33,592 nt of DNA from contig JAHFKB010000008.1 of NCBI GenBank assembly GCA_023245565.1, forward strand, positions 1 to 33,592, read 5' to 3'. This stretch comes from an archaeon. GTDB taxonomy: Archaea > Nanobdellota > Nanobdellia > SCGC-AAA011-G17 > GW2011-AR18. Positions within the stretch are counted from its first letter, which is position 1; each line of letters starts with the position of its first letter. Below are positions 3,473 through 18,229 of the stretch, in pieces. The notes beneath the pieces were generated by a model. It saw nothing but the letters and a program-made list of their open reading frames with translations, did no database searches and was not told the origin of the DNA. The translations under genes and the position numbers were made by a program.

Positions 3473-3544
3473 CTCTTTTCAAAGATGCATCGCAAGAACT
3501 TACTTATAAATTTTGCTCTAAAAAATTATATATATTTTAATAAA

Positions 3545-4204
3545 TTATTTATCTAAATCAAAAATATTTCTAATAGTTAAATCATTTAAAGAATTAACAA
3601 TCCTATCTGCAGATTCAAAATCTTTCTTTTTTTGAAATTTATTAGTTAAACCAATTGTTTTCATACCAATAGATCTAGCAATAGATAAACCACCATTATC
3701 ATCACTAATATAAAGACATTCATTTAAATTTACTTTTAATTTTCCAGCTTCATTTAATAAAAATTCTGGATCTGGTCTATATTTTTTAATATCTTCTAAA
3801 GCAGTAATTGCATCAAATTTTCTTAAAGAAATACCTAAAATTTCTAAATCTTCAATAAGATATTTTTTGGGGAAAAAACTTACAATCCCAATTTTAAAAT
3901 TATTTTGTTTTAAATTATTTATTAATTTTACAACACCATAATTTGGTTTTATTTTAAACTTTGTCATTAGCTCTTTAGCTAATTTTCTAGTCTCTTTACT
4001 AAAATTTTCATAATCTAAATTTAACTCATATTTTTTGTTCCAAAAATTTATTTGATCTTTCAAAGCCCAGCCTAAAGTTTCATTTAGTTCTTTTTTAGAT
4101 CTTTTAATATTAAATTGTTTAAAATATAAATCTCTAGCTTTTTGCATATAGGGTGTCGAATTATATAAAACCCCATTAAATCCAAAAATTACAGCTTTTA
4201 TCAT
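3545..4204 (-). CDS. HAD-superfamily protein with degenerate motif I (likely pseudoenzyme)
   Basis: HAD-like MIKAVIFGFNGVLYNST... with YISDDNGGLSIARSIGMKTIGLTNK; canonical DxDGV replaced by GFNGV. Confidence 0.75.
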   Translation of the reverse strand: MIKAVIFGFNGVLYNSTPYMQKARDLYFKQFNIKRSKKELNETLGWALKDQINFWNKKYELNLDYENFSKETRKLAKELMTKFKIKPNYGVVKLINNLKQNNFKIGIVSFFPKKYLIEDLEILGISLRKFDAITALEDIKKYRPDPEFLLNEAGKLKVNLNECLYISDDNGGLSIARSIGMKTIGLTNKFQKKKDFESADRIVNSLNDLTIRNIFDLDK

Positions 4205-4205
4205 T

Positions 4206-4418
4206 TTAACCTTTTGAATATTTATCTAAATTATAAGTTCCATTATCTTCATTATTTCTAATAATATAAACATAAGTAGTACCTGAACTTTGTCTTTGAA
4301 GATTAATAGTCAAAATTTCTCTAAGAGTATTTAAATCTGGAAGCCTTGATCCTCCAGAATAAGATAAACCTGATTTTCTTACTGCATCATCAATTGTTTT
4401 AATTATATTTTTAGCCAT
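4206..4418 (-). CDS. Small hypothetical protein
   Basis: 70-aa ORF in same-strand run between cupin and HAD genes. Confidence 0.5.
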   Translation of the reverse strand: MAKNIIKTIDDAVRKSGLSYSGGSRLPDLNTLREILTINLQRQSSGTTYVYIIRNNEDNGTYNLDKYSKG

Positions 4419-4430
4419 TTTATATAAAAA

Positions 4431-4775
4431 TTATAAATAATTAGCTCCTTTTTCCAAAATAATTTTATCATCTTCATTAAATTCTTGTCTTACAACAATG
4501 ACATTACTATCTTCTAATGTTTCAATAACTCTATGAATTTCTCCTGGATAAACTTGTACAACATCACCATTAGAAAAAATAATTTTTTCACTATTAATTT
4601 CTATTATTATCTTTCCTGTCAGAATTATATAAAATTCGTGACCTTTGGGATGATAATGTAAATCATCAGAAACTCCTTTTATATTTTTTAAACTATTAAT
4701 TCTTATTGGTGAACCTGTATGAATCCCGCATACTTTTTTCATTTGTTTTTCAAAAGCTAAATTGTATTTTTTCAT
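4431..4775 (-). CDS. Cupin-domain protein
   Basis: GVSDDLHYHPKGHEFYIILTGKIIIEINSEKIIFSNGDVVQVYPGEIHRV: cupin HxH...E...H pattern. Confidence 0.85.
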   Translation of the reverse strand: MKKYNLAFEKQMKKVCGIHTGSPIRINSLKNIKGVSDDLHYHPKGHEFYIILTGKIIIEINSEKIIFSNGDVVQVYPGEIHRVIETLEDSNVIVVRQEFNEDDKIILEKGANYL

Positions 4776-8241: not shown

Positions 8242-8559
8242 ATGTCAGAAGAGGCAATAGAATTCTTAAGAAAATTAGATTTTAAAGAATTAAATTCAGA
8301 TTGTTCAAAAAATAATTTAAACTTAAGAATAGATGATCATACAAAAGAAAAATTCCAAGCAGCATTAAGAACAGCTTATCTTTTAATTACTCAACCAATA
8401 GAAATTGCAATTCCAAGGCAAACAAAAATGGATTCAATGCAATCAATAAGAGAAGTTAAAAAAGTCTTAGATTCTCTTTACTTAAAAACAAAAGATCAAA
8501 AATATAAAAATAATATTAATCATATAAATGATTTAATGGGTAATGGAAAATTAAGATGA
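8242..8559 (+). CDS. Hypothetical protein
   Basis: 105-aa ORF starting about 50 nt from divergent rio1; stop overlaps the next start (ATGA). Confidence 0.65.
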   Translation: MSEEAIEFLRKLDFKELNSDCSKNNLNLRIDDHTKEKFQAALRTAYLLITQPIEIAIPRQTKMDSMQSIREVKKVLDSLYLKTKDQKYKNNINHINDLMGNGKLR

Positions 8560-9251
8560 AAAAACAATTTGATATTAATAAATTACCAAATGATGGATAT
8601 ATTATATTTCCATTATCAATGAGTAGATTAAGTAATACTCAAAATGCAGAAGAATGTTATAAAACAATAGAATATTTTGAGAGAAAAATATCAAGTATAG
8701 GAATAGACGGAATATTTCTTTATACAAATGGTTTATATTATAACAATAATGAACCTGCACTAGAAGTAAGAAAAAGAACTAATGGACAAATGCTTGCACA
8801 TAAAAATGCAATTATGAAATTAATTCTAAAAGACAAAAAATATGTACCACAAGCAATGCATTTTTTACCATGGGATTACATTATATTAAATTCTCCAGAT
8901 TATCAAAATTTTATTCAAAAGTTAAATGAATTAAAAGATAGAGATAAAGAATTTTATAAATTATTAAAAGAGGGTCTGGGAAATAGAGAAGAAAATGAAG
9001 CTAATATAAGTTTCTTAATAGAAGAAATAGTGGTAAGTCATATAGTGAGACAGAGATTAATAGAATTTCCAAAAACATTAGTTAAACAAGATAATTTTAG
9101 ATTAATAATTTATCCAGGACCTTATTTCAAAGCAGATTTATATCAATGGAAAAAGAAAATACTTCCTCAAAAAGAGAATAAAAATCCTTATTATGCATCG
9201 CACTATGATATTAGCAAAAAAATTTTATATAATTTTGATGATTTAGATTAA
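8556..9251 (+). CDS. Hypothetical protein; possible divergent tRNA-dependent cyclodipeptide synthase-like fold
   Basis: 231 aa; N-terminal beta segment with Ser cluster (FPLSMSRLSN), later FLIEEI...IIYPGPYFKADLYQ resembling the CDPS (Y/F)xxxE...YP...LY ordering. ORF solid, family uncertain. Confidence 0.4.
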   Translation: MKKQFDINKLPNDGYIIFPLSMSRLSNTQNAEECYKTIEYFERKISSIGIDGIFLYTNGLYYNNNEPALEVRKRTNGQMLAHKNAIMKLILKDKKYVPQAMHFLPWDYIILNSPDYQNFIQKLNELKDRDKEFYKLLKEGLGNREENEANISFLIEEIVVSHIVRQRLIEFPKTLVKQDNFRLIIYPGPYFKADLYQWKKKILPQKENKNPYYASHYDISKKILYNFDDLD

Positions 9252-9253
9252 AG

Positions 9254-9766
9254 ATGAACAATATCACATTCTCAAGCGACACTAAAATAATAACTTTAAA
9301 AGAAATATTAGAAACCAAAAGATTAGGAGAATCATATTTTAAAACTAAAATAGATCCAGATCAATTTCCAGCAACAAACAAAAGTGCAGAATGGACATAC
9401 AAGAAAATACAGAATTTTATAAATATTATAAAATATAAGAATAAAATTATAGGGTTTACATTTATCATACCTTCAAATAAAAAATTAATGAAGTATTTTA
9501 TATCAAATAAAATAACTGAAAGAGAATTGTATGAGAAAAGCAAAAAATTAAAATTAAATTTTGAAACATTATACTTATGTGCTGCATTCATTAATAAAGA
9601 ATTTAGGAGAGAAAGTCTAGCTCTTAAAGCGTTTATCAAAACAATAAAAAATAACTCAAATAAAAACACATTTTTATTCTACTGGGCTTATTCTAAAGAA
9701 GGTGAAAAACTAGCAAAGAAAATTGGAAAAATAACAAAATTAAAAATATTAAAAAGAAAAAGTTAG
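9254..9766 (+). CDS. Hypothetical protein, possibly GNAT-like acyltransferase
   Basis: KNKIIGFTFIIPSNK ... FETLYLCAAFINKEFRRESLALKAFIKTI is GNAT-like in order; weak. Confidence 0.4.
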   Translation: MNNITFSSDTKIITLKEILETKRLGESYFKTKIDPDQFPATNKSAEWTYKKIQNFINIIKYKNKIIGFTFIIPSNKKLMKYFISNKITERELYEKSKKLKLNFETLYLCAAFINKEFRRESLALKAFIKTIKNNSNKNTFLFYWAYSKEGEKLAKKIGKITKLKILKRKS

Positions 9767-12637: not shown

Positions 12638-15600
12638 TTATCTAACCCTCGCTATAAAATTTCTCTTAGGCTCAAATATATCACCATTTTTTTTAAGTTG
12701 ATCAATAGCTTCTTCAACTTTACTTTCTTCTATGCCTTTAGAAGCTGCCTGAGATATTATTTCTTCAATAGGTATTTCTTTTAAACCTTTTCCTTCTAAA
12801 TCCATAATTATTTCTTTAACTGAAATTATTTTACTTCTAGTAGAAGCACTAATTCCAGAACTAACTCTATCAATATCAATTTGTCCAGTTTCAGGATCAA
12901 ATCCAACTTGCATTAAACAATGTCTTAATAAATCAATTGCTCTTTTAGCATCTTCCTTAGAAACTTTATCATCTAATCTAACTCTAGCAGAAGCTTCTGA
13001 TAATCTTAATACTCCTTCTAATTGTCTAGCAGAAATTGGAATTGGTTTAACTCCAGCATCATCTGCTTTACCAGAATTTCTTAATTGAACATAAAATTCT
13101 TTTATCTCATGAATTGCAGATTTAGTTAAACTAGGTTTTAAATTTCTTTTAGCATATGAAATATATTTTCTTAAAAACTCAACACTAATTTCAGTATTAT
13201 AAATATCATCACTAGTAGAAGATTCTAAAACATGCAAAGCAATTTTTTCATCTCTTTCCCTACTAGGAATATCTCTAACTGGAAATATTAAATCAAATCT
13301 ATTAATTAAAGTACTTGGTAAATCAATTTGTGAAGCAATTGGAGTATAAGGATCAAACCTTCCTAACTTTGGATTTGCAGCTGCTAGTAAAGTAGTTTGA
13401 CAAGTTAAGGTATTACCTTGTATAGTAACTTTACCATTTCTTCTAGTAATGAAAAATCCAGTATTTGTAGCAAAGCAAAATACTTTACCTTTATACTTTA
13501 TTTTTTTAATAGATTTGTTGCTAATAAAAAGTTTGGTTCTATCAGACAAAGAAACCCTATAACTTCTTTTTCTTCCTCTATAGCCTTCTTCATATTGAAT
13601 ATGCATACTAGCAGATTTTCCAATAATAGAAGCAACAGCTTGAAATAAATTAATAAGACTTAATGATGTAGAACTATAAGATTTTTTATCTTTAGATCCA
13701 TCACCTAAAAGCATTGCATTGTAAAGAACCTCTAATTGTTCTTTAGAATATAAAGATAAATTTAAAGAACAACTTTTTTTATCGTCTTTCCCTGAAGCAT
13801 TATTTTTTAAAAAAGTGCAAAGCTGTGTACTAGTAATCTTAAACCAATAGTATTTATCATCTGAAATTTCAGTTAATTTAGAACCTATCAAATTAGAAAA
13901 TTTAAGTAAACATTTTTTAATTTTATCAGCATTTTTACCTTTCTTTTGACTTATAGAAATTGTAGGTTCAGTTTCTATTCCACCTTCAGTTAAATAATAA
14001 CCCAAAAATTCTAACCATAAATCAATAGGGATTTTTTTATCTTTATGTTGATGAGTATATTTTGGATGAATTCTATTCTGTTTATGTTTGATCGCTGGTA
14101 AAATAAAGTATTTCATACTTCTATTATCTAAATTAGCAGCATTTAAAAAATTAAAACAACTATATTTTATATCCTGCGCTTCAACTACTGAATAATTTTT
14201 ATGATTTCTCTCTTTGACTAACATACGATGATTAGGTGTAACTAAAATATCATTTCTTTTGTCTTTAAAGTTATACATTAAATTATCATAATTATAAACA
14301 TAAAGTCCATTATGTTTTAAAAATCTAATTTTATTTATTTTTATATCATAATTAGCTATTTTTAAATCTTTAACTTCAAAATATTTTTTCCAGCCGAATT
14401 CTGTTAATACTTCAGTGTCTTCAGAATAGCAAGCCTGAATATTAGCTTTACTTATTGGAATAATTTGTTGTTCCATTGCAGAATGCAAAGCAGCAGTATC
14501 TTCCTTATCAATTTTATCTAATTCATCAACAGCACATAATCCTTTATTTGCTAAAACTAAAGCTCCAGCTTCTAAACTCCAACCTTTTAAAAATTCATCT
14601 TTAACAACTGATGCAGTCATTCCTGCTCCAGAATTATGACAAACAACGCCGCCAAATCCCCCAATAAAATTTTCATTTCCAGGAACAGAAACATCATAAA
14701 CATAAGGAGAACTTGAATCTACTTCTTCTATTTTTTTAATTCTAACAAATCCTAAATCTCCATTCATCAAAATTTTAAATTCAATTAATTCTTCCATCAA
14801 TTGTTTACCAAACTCAGATAATGAAATCATTACTTGTCTTCCAACCTTAATTTTTGTAAATACTTGTTCATTATCTTTAAAATATTCAAGCACTGATTCA
14901 CCAAAAATGTTTTTTAATTCTGCACCTTCAACAATAATATTTTCATTAATAAAATTTAATCTTTGAAAAAAATGTTTATTTCCTATTCTAGAATAATTTG
15001 CTCTTAAATAATCATTAGAAATTTTAGCTTTAAAGAAATAATCATTCAACAATCTACCTAAACTTTCAAATGGGGGGTTAGTATATCTATTTTTAAATTT
15101 CTTTTTTGGATGAGGCGCCTTTAAATCATATCTAAAACCATTCATTTGTATTTTTCTTCCCTTTATCTCAGATTCTCCATCTTCTAATCTTAAATTACAA
15201 GAAGCAATAATAGATTCTTCCAAATATAAATATAATAAATCAGACATAAGTTCTCTAGATTTAGTAACTCCTGCATCTCCAGCAATATATCCTTTAATAA
15301 ATTCTCTTTTTATTTCAGAATTAGAATTTAAAATCAGAACTGGAATCCTTTTAGTTAATGCATATTTACCAACTATTTCAGGAAATAAATATGTAAATTT
15401 TTTATAAGCTTCTCTTCCATAAATTATAACTCTTACACCATTATCTCCGTGAGAATAAGAACGAGCCTCACTACCAAGATATTCTTTTGATATAGTTTTA
15501 ATATCATTAATAATCTTATCTTCTGATTTATTAAGTGTAAATTCTATTTTATAAGAACCATCTTTATTTACAATATGACCTTCAGCAATATAATAACCAA

Positions 15601-18229
15601 TCAACCTAGCTAAATGAGATGATAAACTAGATTCAAAATTAAAACTTGGAATTTTAGAAGGAATAATCACACAATCCTTTAATTTTAATTCTGCAGCATC
15701 TTTAGTTATAACATTCCCATTTTCCAAAATAAAAATACTATGGTCTTTAGTAACAGTTATTTGTCTTCCTGATTCTAAAGTAAATTTAATTAATTTCTCA
15801 TTAATTTTATGTCTATAAACAGATCTAATTGTTTTCCATTCTAATTTTTTATTACCAAAATTAAGAGATAAAGCTTCAAAATTTTCATTTAAATTAACAA
15901 ATTCTCCATCAAGATTACTACAATTTAAATTAACAAATTCTCCAATTTTAATAATTTGCAAAATTCCATTTTTTCTAACCAATAAAGGCTCATTAAAATC
16001 TAAAGAAGCCCCCTTACCAGAAACAAATCTTGCTTTTGGTGCAGCTTTAGAAATAAATTGTAATAATTGAGATTTTCCAGAGTTATGGCAAACAATACCA
16101 TTTGCTATAAAACTATGACTAACTGGAACTTCAAAATCAAAGACATCAATAACTCCAGAAGGTTCAACCTTAACAACTTTCTCCCATCTCTGAAATTTTT
16201 TCCTCTTTTGTATTTCACTTCTATTTTTTACAACTTCTAAAACTTTTTCTATTGCTTTTTTCTTTTTCTCACAATTAAATCCTATGTGTTGTGCAAACAT
16301 TTCAATATCATAAGATCTTCTTATACACAAATTATCTTCAACAATTCTTGAGTGAATTCCAAAATAAAGAAGTAATAATTGAACATCTCTTAAAAGTCCT
16401 GGAGTATGTGATTTTAATTGAATAGAAGTTCTTCCTCTCCCATTACCAAAAGCACACCCATCAGCGTCAAATAACCAGCTAATAAATTTAGCTATAACAT
16501 GTTTAGGACTTTTAAATATTTGTTGAGGAACTCTCTTACTTGATAAAAAAGAAAGTGATTGTGCTACTTGTCTACTATTAATTTCCATAATATGCATAGT
16601 TTGTTTAGAAACAAACTCTCTTATCAAACCATTTCCATCATCTATAGTTTTAATTTTTCCATCACTTTCAACAGAAAGAATGCTTGGTTCAATACTAAAT
16701 ACACTTCTCCATAAATTAGAAATTTTCAAAATTAAATCTGTTTCTTCATCATTAATATAACAAGTAACTCTATAACCCTTTGGATGAATATTTCCATCAC
16801 CAATTATATATCCACACAAAGAAGCTAATTCAGGAGTAAAATTTTCTGGTATATTAATTTCTTTTAATGGTCCTGATTTTTTTTCAACAGGTAAAAAATC
16901 AGTTGGCACAAGTTTCTCAATGTGATTTGGTATTTTAGGCATAACCCTTATTTTAGTATCTAACAAAATTTCATCTGCTCTTTTCCAACCTTCTTTAGTT
17001 AAAAATGGTTGATTATAAGTACAAACAACTTCTTTTCCACTTTCAGTAATTATTTTAAGAACTGGTTGTTTTTTATATTTCTGAAAAACTGTAGCAAAAT
17101 CATAAGCCTTATCTTTACTATCTCTTCTAATTTTAGTAACTACTTCTTTAATTGGTTGTAAATGTTTTTGACCTAAATTTTGAATTTCCTCCATTCCTTT
17201 ATAAAATAAAGCAACTTGTGAATCCCCTGCAATACAACCTGGATCTCCAACTAAAAGTACATGTATATCTCCTCTAGTTGTAGTTCCATCTGGTTTTTCT
17301 CTTCTCACACCGCCAAATAATTGTAATACTAATGCATCTTTAATTCTATCATGTCCATAAATACCTGGAGCAATTGCTTTTGTAAATTTTTCAAAAATTC
17401 TAGAATCTTTAGAAAAAGTAATTATTTTTTCCTCATCTTCCTTAGTTAAAATTAAATCACTATAGTCTTCTTGAACAGGTTCTATATTATTTGCTTCTAA
17501 AATTAAATCATATCTAATAGATTGTGCTCCGCTTTTCAATTGTATAGGAATTTCTTTTACTATTCCATAAACTCTAACTTTACTTCCAGGAGTTGTTCTC
17601 CTTTCCATTTTTGGTTCAACTAAATCTTCTTCAAGAAGTACACTTAATCTTTTAGGTTGTTCTCCACCATACAAACTTTCAGGAGATTCTTCTAATTTCA
17701 AATGTTGAACATCTATTAATTCTTTAGATAATAATCTAAATTTTCCTCTCCAACCGCAACTACATCTAGTTGGCTCTTTAAATTTCTGATCTATTTGTAA
17801 AATTGTAATAGAATTCCCACAACCAGCACATTCAAATTTTGCACTTGTTACTTGGGGTCTTACATCAGATGCTTGTCTAACAATTCCTTCTATAAATAAA
17901 AAACTTCCAAGATGTACACTTCTTACATCACTAATCTTCATTTTTTGAGTTTCAGGTAAATCTTTGAATCTAACTGATATACCTTTAACATCTTGAGGTA
18001 AGTCAAATTGCTCTAAAGCTAATTCTGCAGATTTAATTGTATCTTCTGGATTATCTAATAAATCATCTGCTACTTCATGATTAAAATTTACTAAATCTGA
18101 AAAAGAAATAATTAAAGATTTAGTACCTGATTTAAGAATATCATAAAACTGGCTTTTATAATGTAACTCTATAAATTCTTTAAACACCCCTATTTGATCA
18201 TTAACATCCATATTACCTCTATAACTCAC
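12638..18229 (-). CDS. mcm: MCM replicative helicase precursor containing three inteins (extein about 680 aa)
   Basis: Exteins splice to ...HVLLVGDPG/SGKSQLLQFISKAAPKARFVSGKGA/SGAGMTASVVKDEFLKGWSLEAGALVLANKGLCAVDELDKIDKEDTAALHSAMEQQIIPISKANIQA/TLTCQTTLLAAANPKLGRF. Annotated GTG start; in-frame ATG at 18211 also possible. Confidence 0.96.
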   Translation of the reverse strand: MSYRGNMDVNDQIGVFKEFIELHYKSQFYDILKSGTKSLIISFSDLVNFNHEVADDLLDNPEDTIKSAELALEQFDLPQDVKGISVRFKDLPETQKMKISDVRSVHLGSFLFIEGIVRQASDVRPQVTSAKFECAGCGNSITILQIDQKFKEPTRCSCGWRGKFRLLSKELIDVQHLKLEESPESLYGGEQPKRLSVLLEEDLVEPKMERRTTPGSKVRVYGIVKEIPIQLKSGAQSIRYDLILEANNIEPVQEDYSDLILTKEDEEKIITFSKDSRIFEKFTKAIAPGIYGHDRIKDALVLQLFGGVRREKPDGTTTRGDIHVLLVGDPGCIAGDSQVALFYKGMEEIQNLGQKHLQPIKEVVTKIRRDSKDKAYDFATVFQKYKKQPVLKIITESGKEVVCTYNQPFLTKEGWKRADEILLDTKIRVMPKIPNHIEKLVPTDFLPVEKKSGPLKEINIPENFTPELASLCGYIIGDGNIHPKGYRVTCYINDEETDLILKISNLWRSVFSIEPSILSVESDGKIKTIDDGNGLIREFVSKQTMHIMEINSRQVAQSLSFLSSKRVPQQIFKSPKHVIAKFISWLFDADGCAFGNGRGRTSIQLKSHTPGLLRDVQLLLLYFGIHSRIVEDNLCIRRSYDIEMFAQHIGFNCEKKKKAIEKVLEVVKNRSEIQKRKKFQRWEKVVKVEPSGVIDVFDFEVPVSHSFIANGIVCHNSGKSQLLQFISKAAPKARFVSGKGASLDFNEPLLVRKNGILQIIKIGEFVNLNCSNLDGEFVNLNENFEALSLNFGNKKLEWKTIRSVYRHKINEKLIKFTLESGRQITVTKDHSIFILENGNVITKDAAELKLKDCVIIPSKIPSFNFESSLSSHLARLIGYYIAEGHIVNKDGSYKIEFTLNKSEDKIINDIKTISKEYLGSEARSYSHGDNGVRVIIYGREAYKKFTYLFPEIVGKYALTKRIPVLILNSNSEIKREFIKGYIAGDAGVTKSRELMSDLLYLYLEESIIASCNLRLEDGESEIKGRKIQMNGFRYDLKAPHPKKKFKNRYTNPPFESLGRLLNDYFFKAKISNDYLRANYSRIGNKHFFQRLNFINENIIVEGAELKNIFGESVLEYFKDNEQVFTKIKVGRQVMISLSEFGKQLMEELIEFKILMNGDLGFVRIKKIEEVDSSSPYVYDVSVPGNENFIGGFGGVVCHNSGAGMTASVVKDEFLKGWSLEAGALVLANKGLCAVDELDKIDKEDTAALHSAMEQQIIPISKANIQACYSEDTEVLTEFGWKKYFEVKDLKIANYDIKINKIRFLKHNGLYVYNYDNLMYNFKDKRNDILVTPNHRMLVKERNHKNYSVVEAQDIKYSCFNFLNAANLDNRSMKYFILPAIKHKQNRIHPKYTHQHKDKKIPIDLWLEFLGYYLTEGGIETEPTISISQKKGKNADKIKKCLLKFSNLIGSKLTEISDDKYYWFKITSTQLCTFLKNNASGKDDKKSCSLNLSLYSKEQLEVLYNAMLLGDGSKDKKSYSSTSLSLINLFQAVASIIGKSASMHIQYEEGYRGRKRSYRVSLSDRTKLFISNKSIKKIKYKGKVFCFATNTGFFITRRNGKVTIQGNTLTCQTTLLAAANPKLGRFDPYTPIASQIDLPSTLINRFDLIFPVRDIPSRERDEKIALHVLESSTSDDIYNTEISVEFLRKYISYAKRNLKPSLTKSAIHEIKEFYVQLRNSGKADDAGVKPIPISARQLEGVLRLSEASARVRLDDKVSKEDAKRAIDLLRHCLMQVGFDPETGQIDIDRVSSGISASTRSKIISVKEIIMDLEGKGLKEIPIEEIISQAASKGIEESKVEEAIDQLKKNGDIFEPKRNFIARVR
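13412..14431 (-). mobile_element. MCM intein 3 (340 aa, LAGLIDADG-type) ending Gly-Asn
   Basis: Starts Cys (CYSEDTEVLTEFGW) after KANIQA, ends FFITRRNGKVTIQGN before TLTCQTTLLAAANPK; LAGLIDADG-like FLGYYLTEGGIE and YNAMLLGDGSK. Confidence 0.92.
14633..16006 (-). mobile_element. MCM intein 2 (458 aa, LAGLIDADG-type) with Ser1
   Basis: Starts Ser (SLDFNEPLLVRKNG) after SGKGA, ends GGVVCHN before SGAGMTAS; LAGLIDADG-like LIGYYIAEGHIV and IKGYIAGDAGV. Confidence 0.92.
16082..17236 (-). mobile_element. MCM intein 1 (385 aa, LAGLIDADG endonuclease) inserted in Walker A
   Basis: Starts Cys (CIAGDSQV), ends GIVCHN, +1 Ser; LAGLIDADG-like LCGYIIGDGNIH and FISWLFDADGCAF. Confidence 0.95.

Follow-up and report, generated by a model that had tools for sequence, protein, structure and literature searches.

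A probable divergent family of cyclodipeptide synthase-type proteins in DPANN archaea

DPANN archaea have small genomes and few biosynthetic pathways. Among cyclodipeptide synthases (CDPSs, PF16715), position 40 is an Asn in enzymes of the NYH subfamily and can be any residue (X) in those of the XYP subfamily. XYP enzymes typically also have basic beta2 and beta7 strands, which grip the tRNA acceptor stem. RCDPS, a third subfamily, has been described without sequence homology to NYH or XYP enzymes (PMC13062777). In archaea, a survey of 2017 contained a single CDPS sequence (PMC5816076). N-acetyltransferase genes rank with the most frequent biosynthetic neighbours of CDPSs (PMC5767969), and a GNAT-fold ligase adjoining the CDPS of R. 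grylli was noted earlier (PMC2922099). As to catalysis, AlbC forms its aminoacyl-enzyme much less well when it carries the Y178F substitution (PMC5935735), and the Tyr equivalent to Y178 in Nbra-CDPS stacks on A76 of the RNA in the complex (PMC13062777).

We analysed a stretch of archaeal DNA of 33,592 nucleotides (hereafter the window) from a small genome (0.9 Mb, 54 contigs) in which no Pfam CDPS (PF16715) scores above cut-off. A preliminary description, made from the sequence alone, had proposed that the window encodes a highly divergent CDPS-like protein (hereafter the window protein). The gene and its immediate surroundings are as follows:

8242..8559, + strand: small resident gene, upstream of the CDPS-like gene
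8556..9251, + strand: CDPS-like enzyme, 231 aa; its start codon and the stop codon of the gene before it overlap (ATGA)
9254..9766, + strand: divergent acetyltransferase with a GNAT fold (170 aa), separated by 2 bp from the CDPS-like gene

The ATGA overlap on one side of the CDPS-like gene and the 2-bp gap between its stop and the start of the GNAT gene on the other suggest that all three genes form a single operon. Since relatives are encoded at 17 other loci, the ORF at 8556-9251 is a true gene and not a chance one. The stretches quoted in the preliminary description, IIFPLSMSRLSN, IDGIFLYTN, DYQNFIQKLNELKDRDKEFYKLL, FLIEEI and IIYPGPYFKADLYQ, are all present exactly in this ORF (+), and they lie where the CDPS-like family is conserved (S21, E156, E157, Y186 and G188 in 17/17 members).

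The neighbouring genes have housekeeping roles in archaea (RIO kinase, KH protein, aIF1A and aIF2-beta-type). Two congeners keep the gene order RIO kinase, 8242-type gene, aIF1A without the CDPS-like and GNAT genes, and the region 8556-9766 therefore behaves as a two-gene cassette that is gained or lost as a unit. The orthologues of the 8242-8559 gene in these congeners are 67-71% identical and occupy the same place, hence this gene does not belong to the module. It contains a LNLRIDDHTKEKF stretch and a weak RelB/DinJ match (E 0.007); a toxin-antitoxin reading based on that match was dropped, because the gene occurs at the same place in congeners without the downstream pair. Composition gave no sign of recent transfer, the GC content of the CDPS-like gene (23%) being like that of the neighbouring resident gene. 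Elsewhere in the window lies an unusually long ORF of 1863 aa (12638-18229, -), which might encode an MCM-type helicase carrying inserted elements; in congeners it is matched by shorter, cut ORFs at about 81% identity over ~264 aa.

Whole-genome searches revealed clear family members in 16 genomes belonging to the window's phylum/class, one of which carries two, and in a 'Nanoarchaeota archaeon' MAG; genomes were drawn as samples, and frequencies here and below are approximate. The family comprises 18 loci when the window and a single partial copy are counted, with 17 full-length members, and it occurs in scattered DPANN-type archaea. Relatives are 28-65% identical to the window protein where aligned and form two groups, the first at about 45-65% and the second at about 28-34% identity. 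No family member was found in either of the other two genomes of the window's genus, and occurrence is therefore patchy. A viral origin is unsupported, since the viral contigs, phages and plasmids searched gave no relatives. When the single protein and the family profile were used as queries, Pfam, NCBIfam, PHROGs and PDB sequences returned nothing significant, and the PF16715 cut-off was reached neither by the window protein nor by any other family member. Thus the strong match to another family that would have spoken against the preliminary description was found in none of Pfam, NCBIfam and PHROGs; matches to iodotyrosine deiodinase (E 0.47) and to a serine/threonine kinase were due to chance. 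The CDPS-like family is undescribed, strongly divergent and beyond recognition by current databases. In the Nanoarchaeota MAG, a gene for a PCMT-type methyltransferase comes 2 bp after the CDPS-like gene (L002:5702-6328, +).

An AlphaFold2 model of the window protein, computed with a 15-sequence alignment as input, reached a pLDDT of 89.9 and a pTM of 0.88. When this model was used for a fold search of the PDB, the 42 best matches were all CDPSs, including AlbC (E 2.3e-7), Rv2275, YvmC and the enzymes of S. haemolyticus, F. dumoffii, N. brasiliensis and R. grylli. By TM-score, a putative CDPS of P. gingivalis (9gun) matched best (0.61/0.67). Searching BFVD yielded two significant matches, both of them viral CDPSs. 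The model shows a Rossmann fold like that of class Ic aaRSs, as the preliminary description had implied, and TM-scores of 0.5-0.6 indicate that the predicted structure is related to CDPSs yet clearly diverged. Judging from the model, a fold relationship between the window protein and CDPSs is nearly certain. The next matches after the CDPSs were class Ic TyrRS structures (E 3e-4), and the Rossmann core is common to CDPSs and class Ic synthetases, as would be expected if the protein were a degenerate paralogue of a class Ic aminoacyl-tRNA synthetase (TyrRS/TrpRS) or some other protein of the HUP fold. We consider this highly improbable: the CDPS fold matches better by three orders of magnitude, the HIGH and KMSKS motifs are found in none of the 17 members, Ser, Glu and Tyr-Pro agree with CDPSs, and the length of the protein suits a complete CDPS.

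Profile-profile comparison with hhalign provided evidence for the CDPS relationship that is independent of the structure model. Within the same phylum, 343 genomes were sampled and 13 of them encode Pfam-positive CDPSs (PF16715 above cut-off). We aligned ten Pfam-positive CDPSs of this phylum with AlbC, whose sequence was verified letter for letter against PDB 3oqv/4q24, and the new family matched this alignment at an E-value of 4e-7. With larger sets on both sides, the CDPS side including weaker archaeal CDPS-like sequences and four plasmid-borne bacterial CDPSs, the comparison gave an E-value of 1.8e-6 and a score of 48.2. As controls, the best of 300 column- or block-shuffled decoys scored 26.1, while a GNAT profile scored 13 and reversed profiles reached 17. 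When CDPS subgroups were compared separately, the DPANN Tyr-Pro (XYP-like) CDPSs scored best (47.8), and the bacterial NYH enzymes scored 26.6. Comparison with only four DPANN CDPSs (set A2) gave an hhalign probability of 15%, whereas the larger sets scored clearly.

Catalytic positions were read from the unconstrained profile alignment to CDPSs, with AlbC numbering:

8616..8618, + strand: S21 codon, counterpart of the catalytic Ser of AlbC (S37), in 17/17 members
8625..8627, + strand: R24 codon, position 40; K/L/Q/R/S in the family, never N
9012..9014, + strand: F153 codon, equivalent of AlbC Y178; 16 Phe and 1 Tyr among 17 members
9021..9026, + strand: E156-E157 codons, E157 equivalent to E182 of AlbC; both in 17/17
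9111..9119, + strand: Y186-P187-G188 codons, Y186 equivalent to Y202 and P187 to the XYP Pro (position 203); Y in 17/17, P in 14/17, G in 17/17

This alignment bears out the motif assignments first proposed for the protein. The Ser cluster had been listed among the CDPS-like elements, and S21, present throughout the family, falls on AlbC S37; FLIEEI, taken as a YxxxE motif with a Tyr-to-Phe change, puts F153 on Y178 and E157 on E182; and the YP recalling the XYP subfamily is Y186 on Y202 followed by P187 on the XYP proline. The spacing between the Glu and Tyr-Pro blocks is longer, as had been remarked, with 29 residues from E157 to Y186 versus 20 from E182 to Y202 in AlbC. By sequence, the protein thus has two marks of an XYP enzyme, a Pro after the catalytic Tyr (P187, 14/17) and a residue other than Asn at position 40 (R24). 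Tyr at position 178, a defining CDPS residue, is replaced by Phe in the window protein (F153) and in 16/17 members overall, and two Pfam-positive DPANN CDPSs (L053 and L058) have Phe there too. By analogy with the Nbra-CDPS complex, Phe could replace Tyr178 in stacking on A76. In view of the Tyr178-to-Phe change, we file the window protein as belonging to a CDPS-type family that probably works like a CDPS, and not as a proven CDPS.

Phe at 178, together with the patchy occurrence among genomes, is what one might see in a catalytically dead CDPS relic or in a regulator that binds charged tRNA. We give this possibility very little credence, since Ser21, Glu157 and Tyr186 are invariant down to 28% identity to the window protein, and such invariance across distant members argues for retained catalysis. 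Alternatively, the CDPS fold might support an altered chemistry, in which a single aminoacyl-tRNA would be used and its amino acid passed, without cyclisation, to another acceptor (a linear dipeptide, a small amine, a lipid or a protein), with the GNAT acting on the same product. The Phe in 16/17 members would fit such a change, as would the longer Glu-to-Tyr segment and the family's own invariants, which are not found in CDPSs (K44, Y56, Y61, H82, E156, Y196 and Y217-D218). On the other hand, all 17 members have Y186, which corresponds to the residue required for cyclisation, and Phe at 178 also occurs in the Pfam-positive CDPSs mentioned above. We regard an altered chemistry as rather unlikely.

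The GNAT gene bears on the same question. The AF2 model of its product (9254-9766) has a pLDDT of 85.5 and matches N-acetyltransferases in the PDB, and a homologue (L099:3741-4253) exceeds the Pfam Acetyltransf_1 cut-off. In four members of the second group (L030, L031, L034 and L048), a GNAT gene is located just upstream of the CDPS-like gene. The L030 GNAT shares 41% identity with the GNAT of L055, encoded by a gene that overlaps the one for the Pfam-positive CDPS there. Ten GNATs of this L030/L055 type were found in 310 genomes; five of these directly adjoin a gene for a CDPS or CDPS-like protein, which belongs to the new family in three cases and lies at L104 (the L055 CDPS again) and L106 in the other two. 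This pairing of a similar GNAT type with ordinary CDPSs also speaks against an altered chemistry. The window GNAT belongs to a different group from the one adjoining the relatives, and was therefore not counted as the same partner. At L106, a CDPS-like domain is fused to a C-terminal SET domain (438-1487, +; own profile E 1e-21, Tyr-Pro type, YFLEE motif), and the fusion is followed by a GNAT of the group adjoining the new family (1495-1932, +).

Other CDPS loci of DPANN archaea showed further associations. At L050, L052, L053 and L056, Tyr-His-type CDPS genes lie beside and opposite a conserved regulator of ~340 aa with an AsnC/Lrp-type HTH, identified by a Pfam run on the L050 copy and by sequence likeness in the others; this regulator is possibly dedicated to the adjoining CDPS. 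Weak or Pfam-positive DPANN CDPSs at L062, L064 and L069 adjoin genes that look, by eye, radical-SAM or B12/radical-SAM-like (L062:3476-4861, L064:1608-2690 and 3516-4673, L069:700-2052; CxxxCxxC in L064), and whose products are possible CDPS tailoring enzymes. In a genome of the window's family, a Pfam-positive CDPS (L065:2413-3552, -) has a C-terminal extension of about 140 aa.

The predicted fold and the catalytic positions in the profile alignment agree, and assignment to a CDPS-like enzyme class, as first proposed, is very probably right. We conclude that the window protein probably represents an undescribed, divergent CDPS-type family of DPANN archaea, closest to XYP, and that its product would be a (cyclo)dipeptide acylated by the GNAT. 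By analogy with CDPSs, we infer that it uses aminoacyl-tRNA, and the order of steps, cyclisation, product and acylation would be as follows. The acceptor arm of a charged tRNA would dock on the enzyme, pocket P1, with F153 and E157, would hold the aminoacyl group, and transfer to S21 would form an aminoacyl-enzyme. A second aminoacyl-tRNA would then give a dipeptidyl-enzyme, with E157 as the base, and Y186 would serve as proton relay for cyclisation and release. Finally, the GNAT encoded 2 bp downstream may acylate either the (cyclo)dipeptide itself or a side-chain amine. More tentatively, this could be a fourth CDPS-type family (seen to date in DPANN alone, and counting RCDPS by description only), which does without the Tyr178 hydroxyl and makes acylated (cyclo)dipeptides with the GNAT, as a tRNA-fed small-molecule pathway of genome-reduced symbiotic archaea.

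Set against the single archaeal sequence of the 2017 survey, DPANN archaea here show both a Pfam-invisible family and many Pfam-positive CDPSs. If the family is active, these archaea would channel charged tRNA into making small molecules, perhaps directed at hosts, and the enzyme would dispense with a residue thought to be near-essential, thus offering a direct test of the CDPS mechanism.

Comparison with known systems places the family as follows. With the class Ic aaRSs (TyrRS, TrpRS) it shares the Rossmann (HUP) core, but it lacks HIGH and KMSKS and the structural match is weaker. RCDPS, taken here by description only, is likewise a CDPS group missed by NYH/XYP homology. The NYH CDPSs (AlbC, Rv2275, YvmC) have the same fold and the Ser37, Glu182 and Tyr202 equivalents, but the window family has neither Asn40 nor His203, and its profile score is 26.6 against them versus 47.8 for the DPANN Tyr-Pro CDPSs. 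From the XYP CDPSs (PF16715; Nbra-CDPS, Rgry-CDPS, Cglo-CDPS) it differs in going undetected by PF16715, in an identity of 15-19% in the profile alignment, in the Phe at Y178, the longer Glu-to-Tyr segment, its own invariants and a C-terminal YD element. It shares with them the Rossmann core (by fold search), the Ser, the Glu, the Tyr followed by Pro, a position 40 open to any residue, a similar length and, in some operons, a GNAT neighbour.
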